From NCBI GenBank assembly GCA_016219005.1, contig JACRCN010000057.1:1-37985 (forward strand): a DNA stretch of 37,985 bases, in the 5' to 3' direction. The notes below the pieces were generated by a model that worked only from the letters and a program-made list of their open reading frames with translations, was not told the origin of the DNA and searched no databases. Below, one piece after another: positions 29,373 to 34,649 of this stretch; the first letter of the stretch is position 1; every line of letters begins with the position of its first letter. The DNA comes from Deltaproteobacteria bacterium. Its GTDB lineage: Bacteria > Desulfobacterota > Desulfobacteria > Desulfobacterales > SpSt-501. The translations under genes and the position numbers were made by a program.

Positions 29373-29482
29373 TCTCACCAACTGTTTGCCAATCGGCCGG
29401 GCGGCCCGGCGATTCGGGCTTGAGAAAATGCCCCGATCCGGCCGACGGAACAATCGTCCCAGGCGCGCTGGAAGGAAATACC

Positions 29483-30217
29483 ATGACGCAGAGGCATGCG
29501 AAGCCCAAGACGGGGCTTAGAATGAACAAACTCGCGGCGGCCACCGGTGTAGCCAAGTCCACCATTCTGTTTTACGTGAGCGCGGGCCTTCTGCCGGAGC
29601 CGGTGAAAACGAGTCCCAACATGGCCTATTACGAACCGGCCTGCGTAGAACGCATCAAACTCATCCAACAAATGCAGGAACGACATCGCCTCACCCTTTC
29701 TGAAATCAGGAACTGCCTGGACGACACGGATCGAGGGGCCGGGCTCGGGATCTATCTTGAACTCAACGAGGAAGTTCTCGGCCCCGGCGGCCCCAAGCAG
29801 ATGTTGGACGCCAAGGCCTTCTGCCGCGAAACGGGCCTCAACGCAAGCCAACTGGAGGATCTGCAGCAGGCGCGCCTGCTGTTGCCGCTCGAAGCAGGCC
29901 GGTTCGATGCGGAAGACGTCAGCATGGGCCGAATGTACCTGGGGGCGTTCAATCTGGGCATCCGGGCGGAGGACCTGTCCTACTATGCGGATCTGGGAGA
30001 AAAGATCGTGGACCGGGAAATGACCTTGCGCAGCCAGATGACCGGCCGCCCCACCTCTCAGCAGGATGCGGCCGCCACCACTAAAATGGTCAAGAACGCC
30101 CGCATGTGTCGGGCTTACGTCATCGATCGCTTGTTCCAGCACCGGGTCGCGTCCATGAAAAGTCTCAAGGAACAACCGGCACCGGAGCGAGAGGAACGCG
30201 AGCCATGGCTCGACTGA
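29483..30217 (+). CDS. MerR family transcriptional regulator with two MerR-like domains
   Basis: A 244-residue regulator from ATG 29483, which has GGAAGG seven bases upstream. Residues about 16-85 are a MerR winged helix (MNKLAAATGVAKSTILFYVSAGLLPEPVKTSPNMAYYEPACVERIKLIQQMQ). Residues about 110-190 repeat the pattern (KAFCRETGLNASQLEDLQQARLLLP, FDAEDVSMGRMYLGAFNLGIRAEDLSYY), suggesting a second, diverged MerR-like domain instead of the usual coiled coil plus effector domain. There is no Cys-based metal site. It precedes a broken SCP2-type gene. Target and effector unknown. Confidence 0.85.
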   Translation: MTQRHAKPKTGLRMNKLAAATGVAKSTILFYVSAGLLPEPVKTSPNMAYYEPACVERIKLIQQMQERHRLTLSEIRNCLDDTDRGAGLGIYLELNEEVLGPGGPKQMLDAKAFCRETGLNASQLEDLQQARLLLPLEAGRFDAEDVSMGRMYLGAFNLGIRAEDLSYYADLGEKIVDREMTLRSQMTGRPTSQQDAAATTKMVKNARMCRAYVIDRLFQHRVASMKSLKEQPAPEREEREPWLD

Positions 30218-30304
30218 TGCGCCATGTCCCGGTCATGGCATCCCCGGGCTGGATCCTTCCGGCCATCCGACCGGCTGCACCTTATTCAAAAGGAAAAACA
30301 AAAA

Positions 30305-30484
30305 ATGGAAAGCCGCCTCACCATTGAAGCCTTGAACGGGTCGCCCCACGCGGGTGCTGGAAATACGGCGTGGTTGGCGATATCAAGGGGGGAGCTCGAC
30401 GGCCAAACGGCCTTCATGAACGGCAAATTCACCGTCTAGGGGGACCTGACGCTTCTTTTTAAAATGGAAAAGCTGTTTCGTTGA
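30305..30484 (+). pseudogene. Remnant of an SCP2 (sterol carrier protein 2)-type lipid-binding protein
   Basis: The frame from ATG 30305 gives WLAISRGELDGQTAFMNGKFTV, stop TAG at 30437-30439, then in the same frame GDLTLLFKMEKLFR and stop at 30482-30484. This is the C-terminal half of the SCP2 fold (usual pattern NGELDGxxAFMxGKLKVKGDxxLAxKL), with the conserved Lys codon (AAG) changed to TAG. The N-terminal half of the domain is missing, replaced by about 20 unrelated codons. It is called a pseudogene on both grounds. It follows the MerR gene by 87 bases. Confidence 0.7.
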
Positions 30485-30718: not shown

Positions 30719-31141
30719 ATGCGGGAAAGAGACGTGCCCCAGGACGAAGGATTGAACCAGGGGCTGCCGGAGATCACGTACGCGGTCGATGAAAACGGCC
30801 GCTACGTTGGCGTTCCGAGCCTGGGGTGGGAACCCAAGAACATCGCCAATGCCCAGGCATGGGAAGTGATCTCTGAAGATATCAACACCCAAGCCCGTCT
30901 GGGCAGGGATGGCAAACGAAGCCCCCTGGCTTATCATTTGGCCAGGCATCTCATGACGGTCGGCCTGGTCGCCAGTTATGTTCGCCTGCCCCGCTGGCGT
31001 GTGAAGCGCCATCTCAAGCCCTCGGTTTTCAACAGGCTAAAACCGGAGATCATGCAGCGATACGCGGATCTATTCGGCCTTACCCTCGCGGAATTCAAAC
31101 AAATCCCCGCAGCAGAAGTCAATTTACTGGACCAGGAATAG
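30719..31141 (+). CDS. Small conserved protein of unknown function, first gene of the KS/ACP/BtrH-like cluster
   Basis: A 140-residue soluble protein starting MRERDVPQDEGLNQGLPEITYAVDENGRYVGVPSLGWEPKN. It has no signal peptide or membrane segment. The N-terminal part looks like a short beta-rich segment (ITYAVDENGRYVGVPSLGWEP), followed by amphipathic helices and a basic C-terminal segment WRVKRHLKPSVFNRLKPEIMQRYADLFGLTLAEFKQIP that could resemble a small helical nucleic-acid- or protein-binding element. I recall similar small proteins beside BtrH-like genes but cannot name a family. It ends seven bases before the BtrH-like gene, so co-expression is near certain. Start ATG 30719 is chosen over ATG 30695, which has no better site. 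Confidence 0.75.
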   Translation: MRERDVPQDEGLNQGLPEITYAVDENGRYVGVPSLGWEPKNIANAQAWEVISEDINTQARLGRDGKRSPLAYHLARHLMTVGLVASYVRLPRWRVKRHLKPSVFNRLKPEIMQRYADLFGLTLAEFKQIPAAEVNLLDQE

Positions 31142-31148
31142 CCCTGAC

Positions 31149-32156
31149 ATGGAAATACCATTCAACCACCGTCAATCGGCTCACTGCGAAACCGGTGTTC
31201 TCGCGAATTTGCTGGGCCATTACGGGTTGACCATCAGCGAGTCGATGGTTTTCGGCATCGGTTCCGGCCTCTTTTTCGGTTATTTCCCCTTTATTCGCAT
31301 CAACCGCCTGCCCCTTACGGCATTCAGAGTCCGCACGGGCGGCATTATGAAACGGGCCGTCAAACGCTTGGGCGTTTCGCTCGCCTGGGAAAAGTTCAGA
31401 AGCCCTGAAAAAGCGATGGCCGTTTTGGACCAGAAGCTGGTTGACGCGGTTCCGGTCGGATGTCGCACCGGTGCCTATTGGCTCAGCTACTTCCCTCGAC
31501 GGTACCGGTTCCACTTCAATATGCACAACCTGGTCGTTTTCGGAAAACAAAACGGCAGCTACCTCATCAGCGACCCGGTTTTCCCCGAACCCGTTCGCTG
31601 CCCGCATGACGACTTGATGAAGGCACGATTTGCCCGCGGCCCGATGCAGCCCAAAGGCCGGATGTATTATGTGACGCATGTGCCTTTGCAGCCGAACCTC
31701 TCCGGAGCGGTCCGCCAGGGGATTAAAGAGGTTTGCCGCACCATGCTGAAGGCGCCGGGACCGTTTCTGGGCGTAAAGGGCATTCGATACCTGGCAAAAA
31801 ATGTCGAGACATGGCCGCAGAAAATGGAGGCGCGCGAGGCCGCGCTCCGCCTGGGGCAGGTCATCCGCATGCAGGAGGAGATCGGGACCGGCGGCGGCGG
31901 GTTTCGCTTCATCTACGCCGCCTTCCTCCAGGAAGCGGCCGGCTTGCTCAACGATGATCATCTTCAACGGCTCTCCGACCGCATGACCGAGGTGGGGGAC
32001 CTGTGGCGCGAGTTTGCGCTCATTGGGTCGCGGATTTGCAAGCAGCGCGCCGATGAAACGGAGACCTATACCGCATTGGCGGCGATCCTGCGGCAATGTG
32101 CGGACACGGAAACCCGGTTGTACCAGGATCTACTAGCGCGCATGGATCAGGAGTAG
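31149..32156 (+). CDS. BtrH N-terminal domain-like protein, putative ACP-dependent acyltransferase
   Basis: A 335-residue protein whose first half matches the BtrH_N family (PF14399) with a papain/C39-like catalytic set: Cys13 in SAHCETGVLANLLGHYGLTISESMVFGIGSG, His126 in FNMHNLVVFG and Asp142 in LISDPVF. BtrH of the butirosin pathway moves an acyl group from an acyl carrier protein to an amine, forming an amide. The C-terminal half (residues about 185-335) is alpha-helical and matches the DUF4872-type partner region in general appearance. Directly followed by an ACP gene and two ketosynthase-type genes, so it may off-load or condense an ACP-bound acyl chain onto an amine or hydroxyl acceptor. 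Family call is firm, reaction is inferred. Confidence 0.8.
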   Translation: MEIPFNHRQSAHCETGVLANLLGHYGLTISESMVFGIGSGLFFGYFPFIRINRLPLTAFRVRTGGIMKRAVKRLGVSLAWEKFRSPEKAMAVLDQKLVDAVPVGCRTGAYWLSYFPRRYRFHFNMHNLVVFGKQNGSYLISDPVFPEPVRCPHDDLMKARFARGPMQPKGRMYYVTHVPLQPNLSGAVRQGIKEVCRTMLKAPGPFLGVKGIRYLAKNVETWPQKMEAREAALRLGQVIRMQEEIGTGGGGFRFIYAAFLQEAAGLLNDDHLQRLSDRMTEVGDLWREFALIGSRICKQRADETETYTALAAILRQCADTETRLYQDLLARMDQE

Positions 32157-32158
32157 GA

Positions 32159-32425
32159 ATGATCAGCAGCATGACCCTGAAAGATCAGCTCAAGAAACTC
32201 ATCGTGGAAGACCTGAACCTCGAGCATGTCCTTCCGGAAGAAATCGGCGATGACGAGCCGTTATTTGGCGACCGATTCGGGCTGGACTCTATCGATGCCG
32301 TCGAACTGGTCTTCCAGCTCAAGAAACATTTCGGGGTCATCATCAAAAACCAGGGCGAGGGCCGCTCGATTCTTCAAAACGTCAACACCATTTGCGCGTT
32401 TATCGAAAAAGGGCAGGCGGCATGA
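32159..32425 (+). CDS. Acyl carrier protein
   Basis: An 88-residue acidic carrier protein. Ser44 in FGLDSIDAVEL is the expected phosphopantetheine attachment site; helices flank it as in FabF-type ACPs (LKKLIVEDLNLEHVLPEEIGDDEPLFG before, VFQLKKHFGVIIKN after). ATG 32159 has AGGAG six bases upstream and directly follows the BtrH-like stop. Its stop overlaps the ketosynthase start (ATGA at 32422-32425). A dedicated ACP within this cluster suggests a pathway separate from housekeeping fatty-acid synthesis. Confidence 0.93.
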   Translation: MISSMTLKDQLKKLIVEDLNLEHVLPEEIGDDEPLFGDRFGLDSIDAVELVFQLKKHFGVIIKNQGEGRSILQNVNTICAFIEKGQAA

Positions 32426-33615
32426 ACCGCCAACAGCCTGTTTCCGTCAGCGGCATGGGCTGTATCTGCGCTGCCGGAAAGAATCTGCCTGATTGCATGG
32501 AGGCTCTTTTTACCCAGGCCCCGACACCCGCTCCGCCGCGCTCCCTTCCCGGGGCGCAACATCCGGTCTTTGAAGTACCCGATCGGTTTCTGCCGACTTC
32601 CGATTCCAAAAATCCGTCCATGGTCCGAGCCGTTCGCCTGGCCCTGGCGGCAACAAATGAAGCGCTGGCGGATGCGGGGTTGACCCCGGCGGCGCTGCGG
32701 AAGAAACGGGTCGGTGTCGTGATCGGCACCAATGTCGGCAGCGGCGAGAGCAATCGGGCCCTCCAGAGAGACTTGACCGGAATCAATTGCAGCTGTTTGT
32801 CGCCGGCCGAGCGTTTCCTCATCGTCAACCCCTCCCAGTGGCTCGCACGGCATTTCGATTTCTCGGGACCGCATTTGACTATCGTCACCGCGTGCTCTGC
32901 CGGCAGCGATGCCATCGGCGTGGCCGGGACATGGATTCGCTCGGGACGATGCGATGTGGTCATCGCCGGAGGAACGGATGCCCTTTACGAAGTGACGTAT
33001 TACGGTTTCATTGCCCTGTTGAACAGCGACACCGCCGCCTGCAAACCCTTCGATGTTCATCGCAACGGCCTGAACCTGGGCGAGGGCGCCGCGATGATGG
33101 TTCTTGAATCAGAGGCCATGCGGACGAACAGGGGCAAGAAGGGCCGGGCTTTTCTATCGGGCTACGGCACGGCGGCCGATGCCTACCACCTCACCGCACC
33201 GCACCCGGAGGGCTGCGGGCTGCGCGTTGCCGTGCAGGATGCCCTCACTTCTGCCGGTGCATCCCCGTCGGACGTCGCATTTATCAATGCGCATGGGACG
33301 GGCACCCGCGAAAACGATCGGGTCGAATCCTTTTTTTTCCACCAGGTATTTCCGGGCGTTCCGTTCGGGTCGACCAAGGGCTATACCGGCCACACGCTCG
33401 GGGCCGCGGGCGCCATTGAAGCGGCTTTCACCGTCGCCGCTCTCGAACTCCAAAAGATGCCGGCAAACGAGGGGTTTGACGCTCCCGACCCCGATTTGCC
33501 GGTCCATCCTGTCGTGGAGCCCACCGAAATTCGCGGCACAACCGCACTTTCCCAGACATTGGCGTTCGGGGGCAACAACAGTGTGTTGGTTTTCACCACG
33601 GGAAGAGGTGCATGA
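32422..33615 (+). CDS. Beta-ketoacyl-ACP synthase (FabF/KS-alpha-like)
   Basis: Condensing enzyme of 397 residues. The catalytic triad is complete: Cys158 in TIVTACSAGSDAIG, His291 in NAHGTGTREND and His324 in GYTGHTLGAAG. Also visible are the family segments GGTDALYEVTYYGF, CKPFDVHRNGLNLGEGAAMMVLE and C-terminal LSQTLAFGGNNSVLVF. Two FabF-like halves of the thiolase fold cover the entire length. It overlaps the ACP gene upstream and the KS-like gene downstream by four bases each. It probably elongates an acyl chain on the cluster's ACP, in pair with the next protein. No ketoreductase, dehydratase or acyltransferase gene is present in the cluster. Confidence 0.93.
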   Translation: MNRQQPVSVSGMGCICAAGKNLPDCMEALFTQAPTPAPPRSLPGAQHPVFEVPDRFLPTSDSKNPSMVRAVRLALAATNEALADAGLTPAALRKKRVGVVIGTNVGSGESNRALQRDLTGINCSCLSPAERFLIVNPSQWLARHFDFSGPHLTIVTACSAGSDAIGVAGTWIRSGRCDVVIAGGTDALYEVTYYGFIALLNSDTAACKPFDVHRNGLNLGEGAAMMVLESEAMRTNRGKKGRAFLSGYGTAADAYHLTAPHPEGCGLRVAVQDALTSAGASPSDVAFINAHGTGTRENDRVESFFFHQVFPGVPFGSTKGYTGHTLGAAGAIEAAFTVAALELQKMPANEGFDAPDPDLPVHPVVEPTEIRGTTALSQTLAFGGNNSVLVFTTGRGA

Positions 33616-34649
33616 AGGCCTTCATCAGGGGAGCCGGCGTCGTCGGGGGGTTCGGCTGCAGGCTGTCAAGCCTGGAAGAAGCCATTCGCAAACGCCCCGC
33701 TCCCGATTCGGATCCCGCGGCCTCAGGTTCGAGCACAGAAGCGTCTGCCGTCTCGACGGCCACGGCGAGAACCGACCTGCTGGATCAGTTGATCCCACCG
33801 CGAACCCTGCGCAGAGTGGACCATTATGCCCGAATGGCCATTCTGGCCAGCCATCTCGCCCGCGAAGATGCGGGGATGGGTAACGGACTGCCGGAAAACA
33901 CAGGTCTTATCGTCGCCACCGGCATGGGCCCGACGGCCAACACGCTGGACCTGCAAGCCGCGGACGTGGCTGCAACCGATCTTGCGCTCTCACCCATTTT
34001 GTTTTCAAATTCGGTGCAGAATGCTGCCGCGGCATACATTTCGATGTTGCTGAAGATCCGGGGGCCCAGCCTCTCGATCAACCAGTATGAGATGGCGGTA
34101 CCGCTCGCTTTTCAAACGGCGATCGATTGGATAGAAGAAGGCCGCACCGAAACGGTTTTAGTCGGCAGCATCGACTGTTTTTCAAAAGCCCTGCACGAGG
34201 CCGCCCTGAACTGCCGGGATTTGAAAAATGGAAACGGCGGCCAACGGGCGGCTCCGGTCGGCGAAGGAAGCTCGTTTTTTATTCTCACCCGGTCAGGGAC
34301 GCAAGACATCCGGTACCCCTTCGTCCGTCATGTCCTTATGGGGGGGACGCGCCGACAAAATGGGGCACCCATCCCGAACACACTGATCCTGCATAACGGG
34401 GCCGGCAGGAACACCGGCTTCATGGGTCATGACCCCGTGCATGCGAATTTCGCACACCTTTACGGGACCTTCCCTACCAGCATGGGCATGGACGTTGCCG
34501 CAGCGATGCTCCTCCTGAGAACCGAGCAGCTCTTGAGTATATCAGTGCCGCAGTTCGAGGCCGGGCCCGCGTTCCCGGAAAATCCCCTGATCTGTTGCCT
34601 GAAAAAAGGGGAGACCGGCGATTGGGGCATGATCGTCATCGGCAGATAA
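33612..34649 (+). CDS. Ketosynthase homologue lacking the active-site cysteine (chain-length-factor-like)
   Basis: A 345-residue thiolase-fold protein related to the preceding ketosynthase but inactive in pattern: the segment GPSLSINQYEMAVPLAFQTAIDWI aligns with GPHLTIVTACSAGSDAIG of its partner, putting Glu160 where Cys158 should be. No HGTGT motif is seen; the later region reads GTFPTSMGMDVAAAMLLL where the partner has GYTGHTLGAAGAIEAAF, so the second catalytic His is also gone. This is the arrangement of type II PKS KS/CLF pairs, although in classical CLFs the Cys is replaced by Gln. Start overlaps the KS stop (ATGA 33612-33615). The name chain-length factor is by analogy. Confidence 0.8.
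   Translation: MKAFIRGAGVVGGFGCRLSSLEEAIRKRPAPDSDPAASGSSTEASAVSTATARTDLLDQLIPPRTLRRVDHYARMAILASHLAREDAGMGNGLPENTGLIVATGMGPTANTLDLQAADVAATDLALSPILFSNSVQNAAAAYISMLLKIRGPSLSINQYEMAVPLAFQTAIDWIEEGRTETVLVGSIDCFSKALHEAALNCRDLKNGNGGQRAAPVGEGSSFFILTRSGTQDIRYPFVRHVLMGGTRRQNGAPIPNTLILHNGAGRNTGFMGHDPVHANFAHLYGTFPTSMGMDVAAAMLLLRTEQLLSISVPQFEAGPAFPENPLICCLKKGETGDWGMIVIGR

Follow-up and report, generated by a model that had tools for sequence, protein, structure and literature searches.

What do five tightly packed genes in a relative of the sulfate-reducing bacteria make with a ketosynthase pair, an acyl carrier protein (ACP) of their own and an acyltransferase of the BtrH kind? The genes lie in a stretch of 37,985 nucleotides from a Deltaproteobacteria bacterium (assembly GCA_016219005.1, 5.24 Mb in 106 contigs); this stretch, hereafter the window, is one whole contig (JACRCN010000057.1, here C21). 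From comparison of sequences we propose, at a probability of roughly two in three, that they form an accessory module (DarG-DarH-ACP-KS-KSbeta, where KS is a beta-ketoacyl-ACP synthase and KSbeta its degenerate partner) of a dialkylresorcinol/aryl-polyene pathway of the flexirubin and arcuflavin kind, which would be spread over at least three contigs and run through the steps described below. Gene sets of this five-gene kind are already known. What is new lies outside the window: directly upstream of the ring-forming enzyme DarB, all but one of the genomes that could be read carry either DarA or a B12-dependent radical S-adenosylmethionine (SAM) protein. The five genes are as follows.

30719..31141, + strand: DarG-family protein, 140 amino acids (NCBIfam NF053536), the positional counterpart of darD in Azoarcus BH72
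31149..32156, + strand: DarH, 335 amino acids, a BtrH-related, probable carrier-protein acyltransferase (NF053550, BtrH_N, DUF4872), darE in the Azoarcus naming
32159..32425, + strand: DarC-like ACP, 88 amino acids, with the phosphopantetheine site at Ser44 (PF00550)
32422..33615, + strand: DarJ-like KS, 397 amino acids, with Cys158, His291 and His324 (PF00109, PF02801)
33612..34649, + strand: KSbeta, a Cys-less degenerate KS partner resembling a chain length factor, probably DarK, 345 amino acids (PF00109)

The gene calls, spacings and catalytic residues given by an earlier reading of these letters alone (the sequence-only reading) were upheld when the frames, the gaps and the KS, ACP and DarH residues were read again, as was its description of a compact unit on one strand: in gene order, gaps of 7 and 2 bases come first, and the last two junctions are 4-base ATGA overlaps. 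All five are real and intact, and purifying selection acts on them. The ratio of nonsynonymous to synonymous substitution rates (dN/dS) against the same-genus genome G004 is 0.168 for DarG, 0.082 for DarH, 0.120 for the ACP, 0.155 for KS and 0.164 for KSbeta. A survey of 291 genomes of the order (cut-offs E 1e-40 for DarH and DarB, 1e-20 for DarA and 1e-60 for the radical SAM protein) found DarH in 33, including 2 of the 7 genomes of the genus, the present one among them. Of the 32 other DarH-positive genomes, 13 have all five genes on one strand in the order DarG-DarH-ACP-KS-KSbeta (19 loci were found, six being second copies of genomes already counted), which bears out the conserved co-occurrence that the sequence-only reading had asked about. 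Since dN/dS is 0.08–0.17 in all five genes and their order is kept in these 13 genomes, the cluster is not a chance arrangement. Several of the remaining DarH-positive genomes are interrupted by contig ends at the locus (e.g. G139, G175 and G219), and in G149 and G076 the KS and KSbeta frames overlap by hundreds of bases, so that the gene ends there are unsure.

The affiliation of the cluster is given by its first two genes, both of which are dialkylresorcinol proteins in NCBIfam. Gene 1 scored 132.7 bits against the DarG-family model NF053536 (cut-off 70) and 126.1 against the flexirubin_DarG equivalog, under its cut-off of 170; gene 2 scored 460.1 bits against the DarH equivalog NF053550 (cut-off 300). 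The other three genes matched Pfam models above cut-off and, in NCBIfam, just general or other-pathway models, each under its cut-off. In Azoarcus BH72, Table 1 of the arcuflavin paper (PMC3949708) lists darA, darB, darD (conserved hypothetical), darE (BtrH-like), darF and darI (ABC), darC (ACP), darJ (KS) and darK (hypothetical). We read the cluster as a module of such a pathway because DarG and DarH exceed their family cut-offs and the kinds of gene match darD, darE, darC, darJ and, probably, darK in that gene list. The sequence-only reading knew of no characterised pathway with exactly this set; that statement did not survive the comparison, and the genes belong instead to the known aryl-polyene/dialkylresorcinol system. 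Azoarcus likewise has an ABC transporter (darF, darI) and DarB, and its polyene genes lie elsewhere in the genome. It differs in that here the five genes are compact, lie on another contig than DarB and the ABC genes and have no PHD/PilT pair among them, and in that DarA was not found, a B12-radical SAM gene being present upstream of DarB. The celluxanthene cluster (PMC12144888), which is described with an iterative type I polyketide synthase, was considered as a match and ruled out.

The window holds one part of the pathway, because DarB, the ABC genes and an aryl-polyene-type cluster lie on another contig, C77. The DarB encoded there is 79% identical to its L023 homologue and scored 503 bits against the StlD/DarB subfamily model (cut-off 450), which marks it as a ring-forming KS of the DarB type; its gene adjoins the radical SAM gene, directly 5', and genes for an ABC ATPase and permease. 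The polyene-type cluster comprises an MMPL protein with a methyltransferase domain, a polysaccharide deacetylase, a dehydratase-phosphopantetheinyl transferase fusion, an ACP, an ApeI-like dehydratase (34.6 bits, cut-off 28.5), a short-chain reductase (recognized from its sequence, not by a family scan), a LolA-like protein, KSs with a degenerate partner and an LpxL-type acyltransferase. The KS, ketoreductase, dehydratase, ACP and exporter of the aryl-polyene/flexirubin gene set are thus all present in the genome; the sequence-only reading was right that the cluster has no ketoreductase or dehydratase, but this does not extend to the genome. A third contig, C30, encodes an aromatic amino acid lyase, an AMP ligase, a tryptophanase/tyrosine-phenol-lyase-like protein and two KSs. 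The lyase, ligase and tryptophanase-like genes lie at L124:3671-8311, and G004 has a similar pair, frames of 482 and 516 amino acids, beside its dar genes. The flexirubin clusters of Chitinophaga pinensis and Flavobacterium johnsoniae as presented in PMC3992019 likewise combine dialkylresorcinol and aryl-polyene genes with an ammonia lyase, a ligase, LolA, an exporter and a deacetylase; unlike them, the present genome has an ammonia lyase and a LolA that fall under the flexirubin equivalog cut-offs, and DarA was not found in it.

The same-genus genome G004 has the five genes in one continuous run with DarB, the radical SAM gene and the ABC genes, and the cluster genes also stand beside DarB in G030, G076, G125 and G207, among others. 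The split locus of the present genome need not be an effect of assembly, since G121, a single contig, is split in the same way, its DarH and the other four genes lying at 2.62 Mb and DarB with its radical SAM neighbour at 5.06 Mb. Of the 33 DarH-positive genomes of the order, 25 were found to have DarB, as were 15 of 17 further DarH-carrying genomes that were reached via named loci (E 1e-30). Among 33 loci found to share these genes, most bear the title Desulfobacterales, Desulfobacteraceae or Deltaproteobacteria, and a few are others such as Geobacter, Bacteroidales and Chlorobiota; locus L022 matches the window at 88%. At L035, L036, L044, L046, L052 and L053, the gene after DarG-DarH encodes another kind of radical SAM protein, about 445 amino acids long (a frame of 565 at L052), in place of the ABC genes or the ACP.

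What, then, would the module contribute? The chain-building pair and ACP described by the sequence-only reading are present. The ACP scored 36.9 bits against PF00550 (cut-off 20.8), with PRK09184 as its best NCBIfam model (61.7, under the cut-off of 70), and Ser44 is invariant in 21/21 aligned rows. KS has PRK09185 as its best NCBIfam model (290 bits, under the cut-off of 407), and its Cys158, His291 and His324 are invariant in 21/21 rows, as in the active member of a KS-chain length factor pair. KSbeta (PF00109, 51 bits) has Glu160 in place of the Cys, and this position is Glu or Asp in 20/20 rows, a count that includes L027 (partly out of frame) and L177 (partial). In the chain length factors of type II polyketide synthases for aromatic products this position is usually Gln, and KSbeta, with its acidic residue, is unlike them. 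An active KS whose inactive partner is encoded next door is also described for ApeO-ApeC of aryl polyenes (PMC8253772). KS, KSbeta and the ACP probably make a beta-ketoacyl-ACP for DarB: reduction genes are missing from the five-gene unit, which fits a single condensation, and the KS and its Cys-less partner would carry out that condensation, with no reduction, on the cluster ACP. Beta-ketoacyl-ACP is the substrate of DarB, and the DarB of C77 would couple it with a second fatty-acyl unit to give a cyclohexanedione, which is known DarB chemistry.

In other organisms the ring is then aromatized by DarA; here, we propose, the B12-radical SAM protein in the DarA slot would do so. In 38 genomes the gene directly 5' of DarB could be read: 20 have the radical SAM gene there, 17 have DarA and one has neither. 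Within the order, with 25 DarB genes, the figures are radical SAM 10, DarA 12 (that of G139 is a contig-edge fragment), neither one and contig end two (G107 and G285); the genome with neither, G251, has its DarA on another contig. The 15 DarB genomes outside the order set divide into ten with the radical SAM gene and five with DarA. Three further cases stand outside the count of 38, namely L024, with the radical SAM gene before DarB, and G028 and G089, which were chosen for their radical SAM gene and are included in the DarB tree. The radical SAM protein occurs in 16 of the 291 genomes, 12 of them (of the 33) with DarH; of the four without DarH, G028 and G089 have it next to DarB, and in G133 and G152 the contig ends just after it, as it also does in G084. 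DarA occurs in 14 of the 33 DarH-positive genomes, a figure that includes a fragment in G107 and, in G207, a protein of 38% identity on another contig (L136:8871-9848), away from DarB; G207 is the only one of the 33 with both. The DarA query was named by its place before DarB and its length only, as in the Azoarcus gene list. Naming it by family model was tried and failed, Pfam giving no match and NCBIfam just weak flavodoxin-like matches. In a plasmid collection the query found three Streptomyces records, in which the matches are annotated 'hypothetical protein'.

The radical SAM protein of the present genome exceeds the Pfam cut-offs for both a B12-binding and a radical SAM domain, and its CxxxCxxC motif is invariant in 19 rows, one of which (L129) duplicates the query. 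The radical SAM gene of G121 (L131:7340-8640) was read as two overlapping frames and is perhaps broken or mis-sequenced. In a 41-row tree of DarB, which omits the G107 fragment and one record duplicated by G298 and in which G251 was scored as DarA, the two partner states need at least three changes, and the approximately unbiased test speaks only at the borderline (p 0.044) against the radical SAM-linked DarBs having arisen once. This pattern suggests that an aromatase has been replaced, the partner enzyme having been exchanged, probably with the oxidation step staying the same. DarA-type genomes occur in this order as well, so an anaerobic way of life is not enough to account for the exchange. 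The fuller proposal, that in anaerobic desulfobacteria and their neighbours DarA was swapped more than once for an unrelated B12-radical SAM aromatase of DarB's cyclohexanedione, with DarH joining the halves of the pigment, is a tentative one that we hold at well under even odds.

The main rival to aromatization is that the radical SAM protein leaves the cyclohexanedione non-aromatic and adds a methyl group or some other decoration to it, the product then being of a new class, and we regard this as a serious contender falling only a little short of an even chance. Most known B12-radical SAM enzymes are methylases, and the family nearest to the L023 homologue is the hopanoid methylase HpnR (171 bits, cut-off 650). 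Against this, the protein fills the DarA slot directly upstream of DarB and only G207 of the 33 genomes has both, a distribution that is better fitted by two enzymes serving the same step.

With aromatization as the preferred third step, the aryl-polyene genes of C77 and C30, whose presence is observed, would supply a polyenoyl-ACP, and the part left to the window is that of DarH. The description of this protein as a BtrH-type Cys-His-Asp acyltransferase is supported: it has the BtrH_N and DUF4872 domains in Pfam, its Cys13, His126 and Asp142 are invariant in 50/50 aligned rows, and its AlphaFold model (predicted local distance difference test, pLDDT, 93) has the two-domain fold of CtaG, AziU3 and CcbD over nearly its full length (Foldseek E 2e-11 to 8e-8; Z 21–25 at 10–17% identity). 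C39 peptidases and phytochelatin synthase follow at Z <14. CcbD is a celesticetin enzyme and AziU3 an azinomycin enzyme. The CtaG variants C11A, H128A and D144N named in PDB titles fit DarH C13, H126 and D142 in their order and spacing. A single-sequence search of the sequences of solved structures gave no match to DarH; with a profile, 13 chains were found up to E 1, the top-scoring ones being helical bundles; only a C39-like peptidase and the two sequences of AziU3 (E 0.013) look like relatives. By analogy, the acyl donor of DarH is probably a carrier protein, as for CtaG of the closthioamide pathway, which transfers hydroxybenzoate between two carrier proteins, onto a beta-alanine chain borne by the second (PMC6772006).

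We propose that DarH joins the polyene and resorcinol halves of the pigment, its Cys13 accepting the polyene from its ACP and esterifying the resorcinol, a role suggested by the fold, the triad and the flexirubin ester; in this it would differ from CtaG, CcbD and AziU3 by acting on a phenol. The resorcinol hydroxyl is proposed as acceptor, and is more likely than an amine, because flexirubin is a polyene acid ester of resorcinol (PMC3992019) and arcuflavin is predicted from mass spectra to be such an ester also (PMC3949708). The ABC, MMPL and LolA-like proteins would then carry the pigment to the envelope. It is possible, though in our view unlikely, that DarH instead loads or edits the ACP, for instance by shuttling acyl groups between carriers or unloading stalled ones, while a ligase like FlxW, the enzyme proposed for the joining step in flexirubin synthesis (PMC3992019), unites the halves. 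Papain-like folds also hydrolyse, as the next fold matches of DarH, the C39 peptidases and phytochelatin synthase, illustrate, but DarH has kept both the two-domain fold and the triad of the transfer enzymes. Least probable, and indeed improbable, is a self-contained amide pathway in which KS pair and ACP make a short acyl chain that DarH delivers to an amine in the manner of BtrH, CcbD or CtaG: the solved relatives of DarH are presumably amide-forming enzymes and CtaG does load a beta-alanine chain, but flexirubin is an ester, no amine-supplying gene was found among the five by Pfam and NCBIfam family search, and we dropped this reading as first choice since the genes keep company with DarB, standing beside it in several genomes and sharing 25/33 and 15/17 genomes with it through DarH.

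A number of observations weigh against the proposed module and its pathway. No DarA match was found in the present genome at E 0.001 with the DarA of a relative as query. The DarB of C77 reached 420 bits at the dialkylresorcinol-specific model NF053539, under the cut-off of 550, and the flexirubin-specific models FlxA and LolA2 gave 299.6 bits (cut-off 700) and 103.6 bits (cut-off 125). DarB was not found (E 1e-40) in 8 of the 33 DarH-positive genomes of the order; one of these eight, G279 (single contig; L127, C1:3938000-3957000), has the radical SAM gene directly before DarG-DarH. KSbeta was found at E <1e-40 in just 18 of the 33, weaker matches being other ketosynthases, so the KS pair is dispensable for the pathway. 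Finally, the solved DarH-like enzymes of nameable role use amines as acceptors, and for the ester step PMC3992019 proposes the ligase-like FlxW.

If the proposal is true, polyene-resorcinol pigments would be made in anaerobic desulfobacteria and their neighbours via a new ring-oxidation chemistry; the DarA-or-radical-SAM pattern gives a clear, testable prediction of anaerobic aromatization. DarH would likewise be a second candidate, with precedents of solved fold, for the enzyme that joins polyene and resorcinol, beside the FlxW of PMC3992019. No title among those listed in our literature search linked radical SAM enzymes with DarB or flexirubin, which is no proof that the link is unpublished; PMC7081238, on bartolosides, mentions radical SAM once and dialkylresorcinol five times. 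Papers such as PMC7593590 and PMC11834409 mention flexirubin, arylpolyene and 'Desulfo' together, and we do not present such clusters as new to sulfate reducers.

The first gene of the module, DarG, may have a regulatory or scaffolding role. Its structure model (pLDDT 91) comprises a short beta hairpin, a long helix and then a helix-turn-helix domain at about residues 62–134, which by model is lambda-repressor/XRE-like (fold-match Z about 10; the best Foldseek E, just 0.0099, is weak). Assigning DarG to a known enzyme family was tried and rejected, Pfam yielding just a sub-threshold AraC-type match. It may be either a regulator or an enzyme, because helix-turn-helix-like folds are also found in enzymes such as HppE.

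Searched against the plasmid collection, DarH matched 64 records, all at <60% identity; 45 of these records with a remote BtrH_N-type protein are from Acinetobacter, with an identity to DarH of 28% in the three Acinetobacter rows shown. Upstream of the cluster and on the same strand, family search identified a MerR-family regulator at window positions 29441–30217, and a short frame at 30224–30439, just 5' of the cluster, resembles, to judge by its letters only, the end of a sterol-carrier-type domain.

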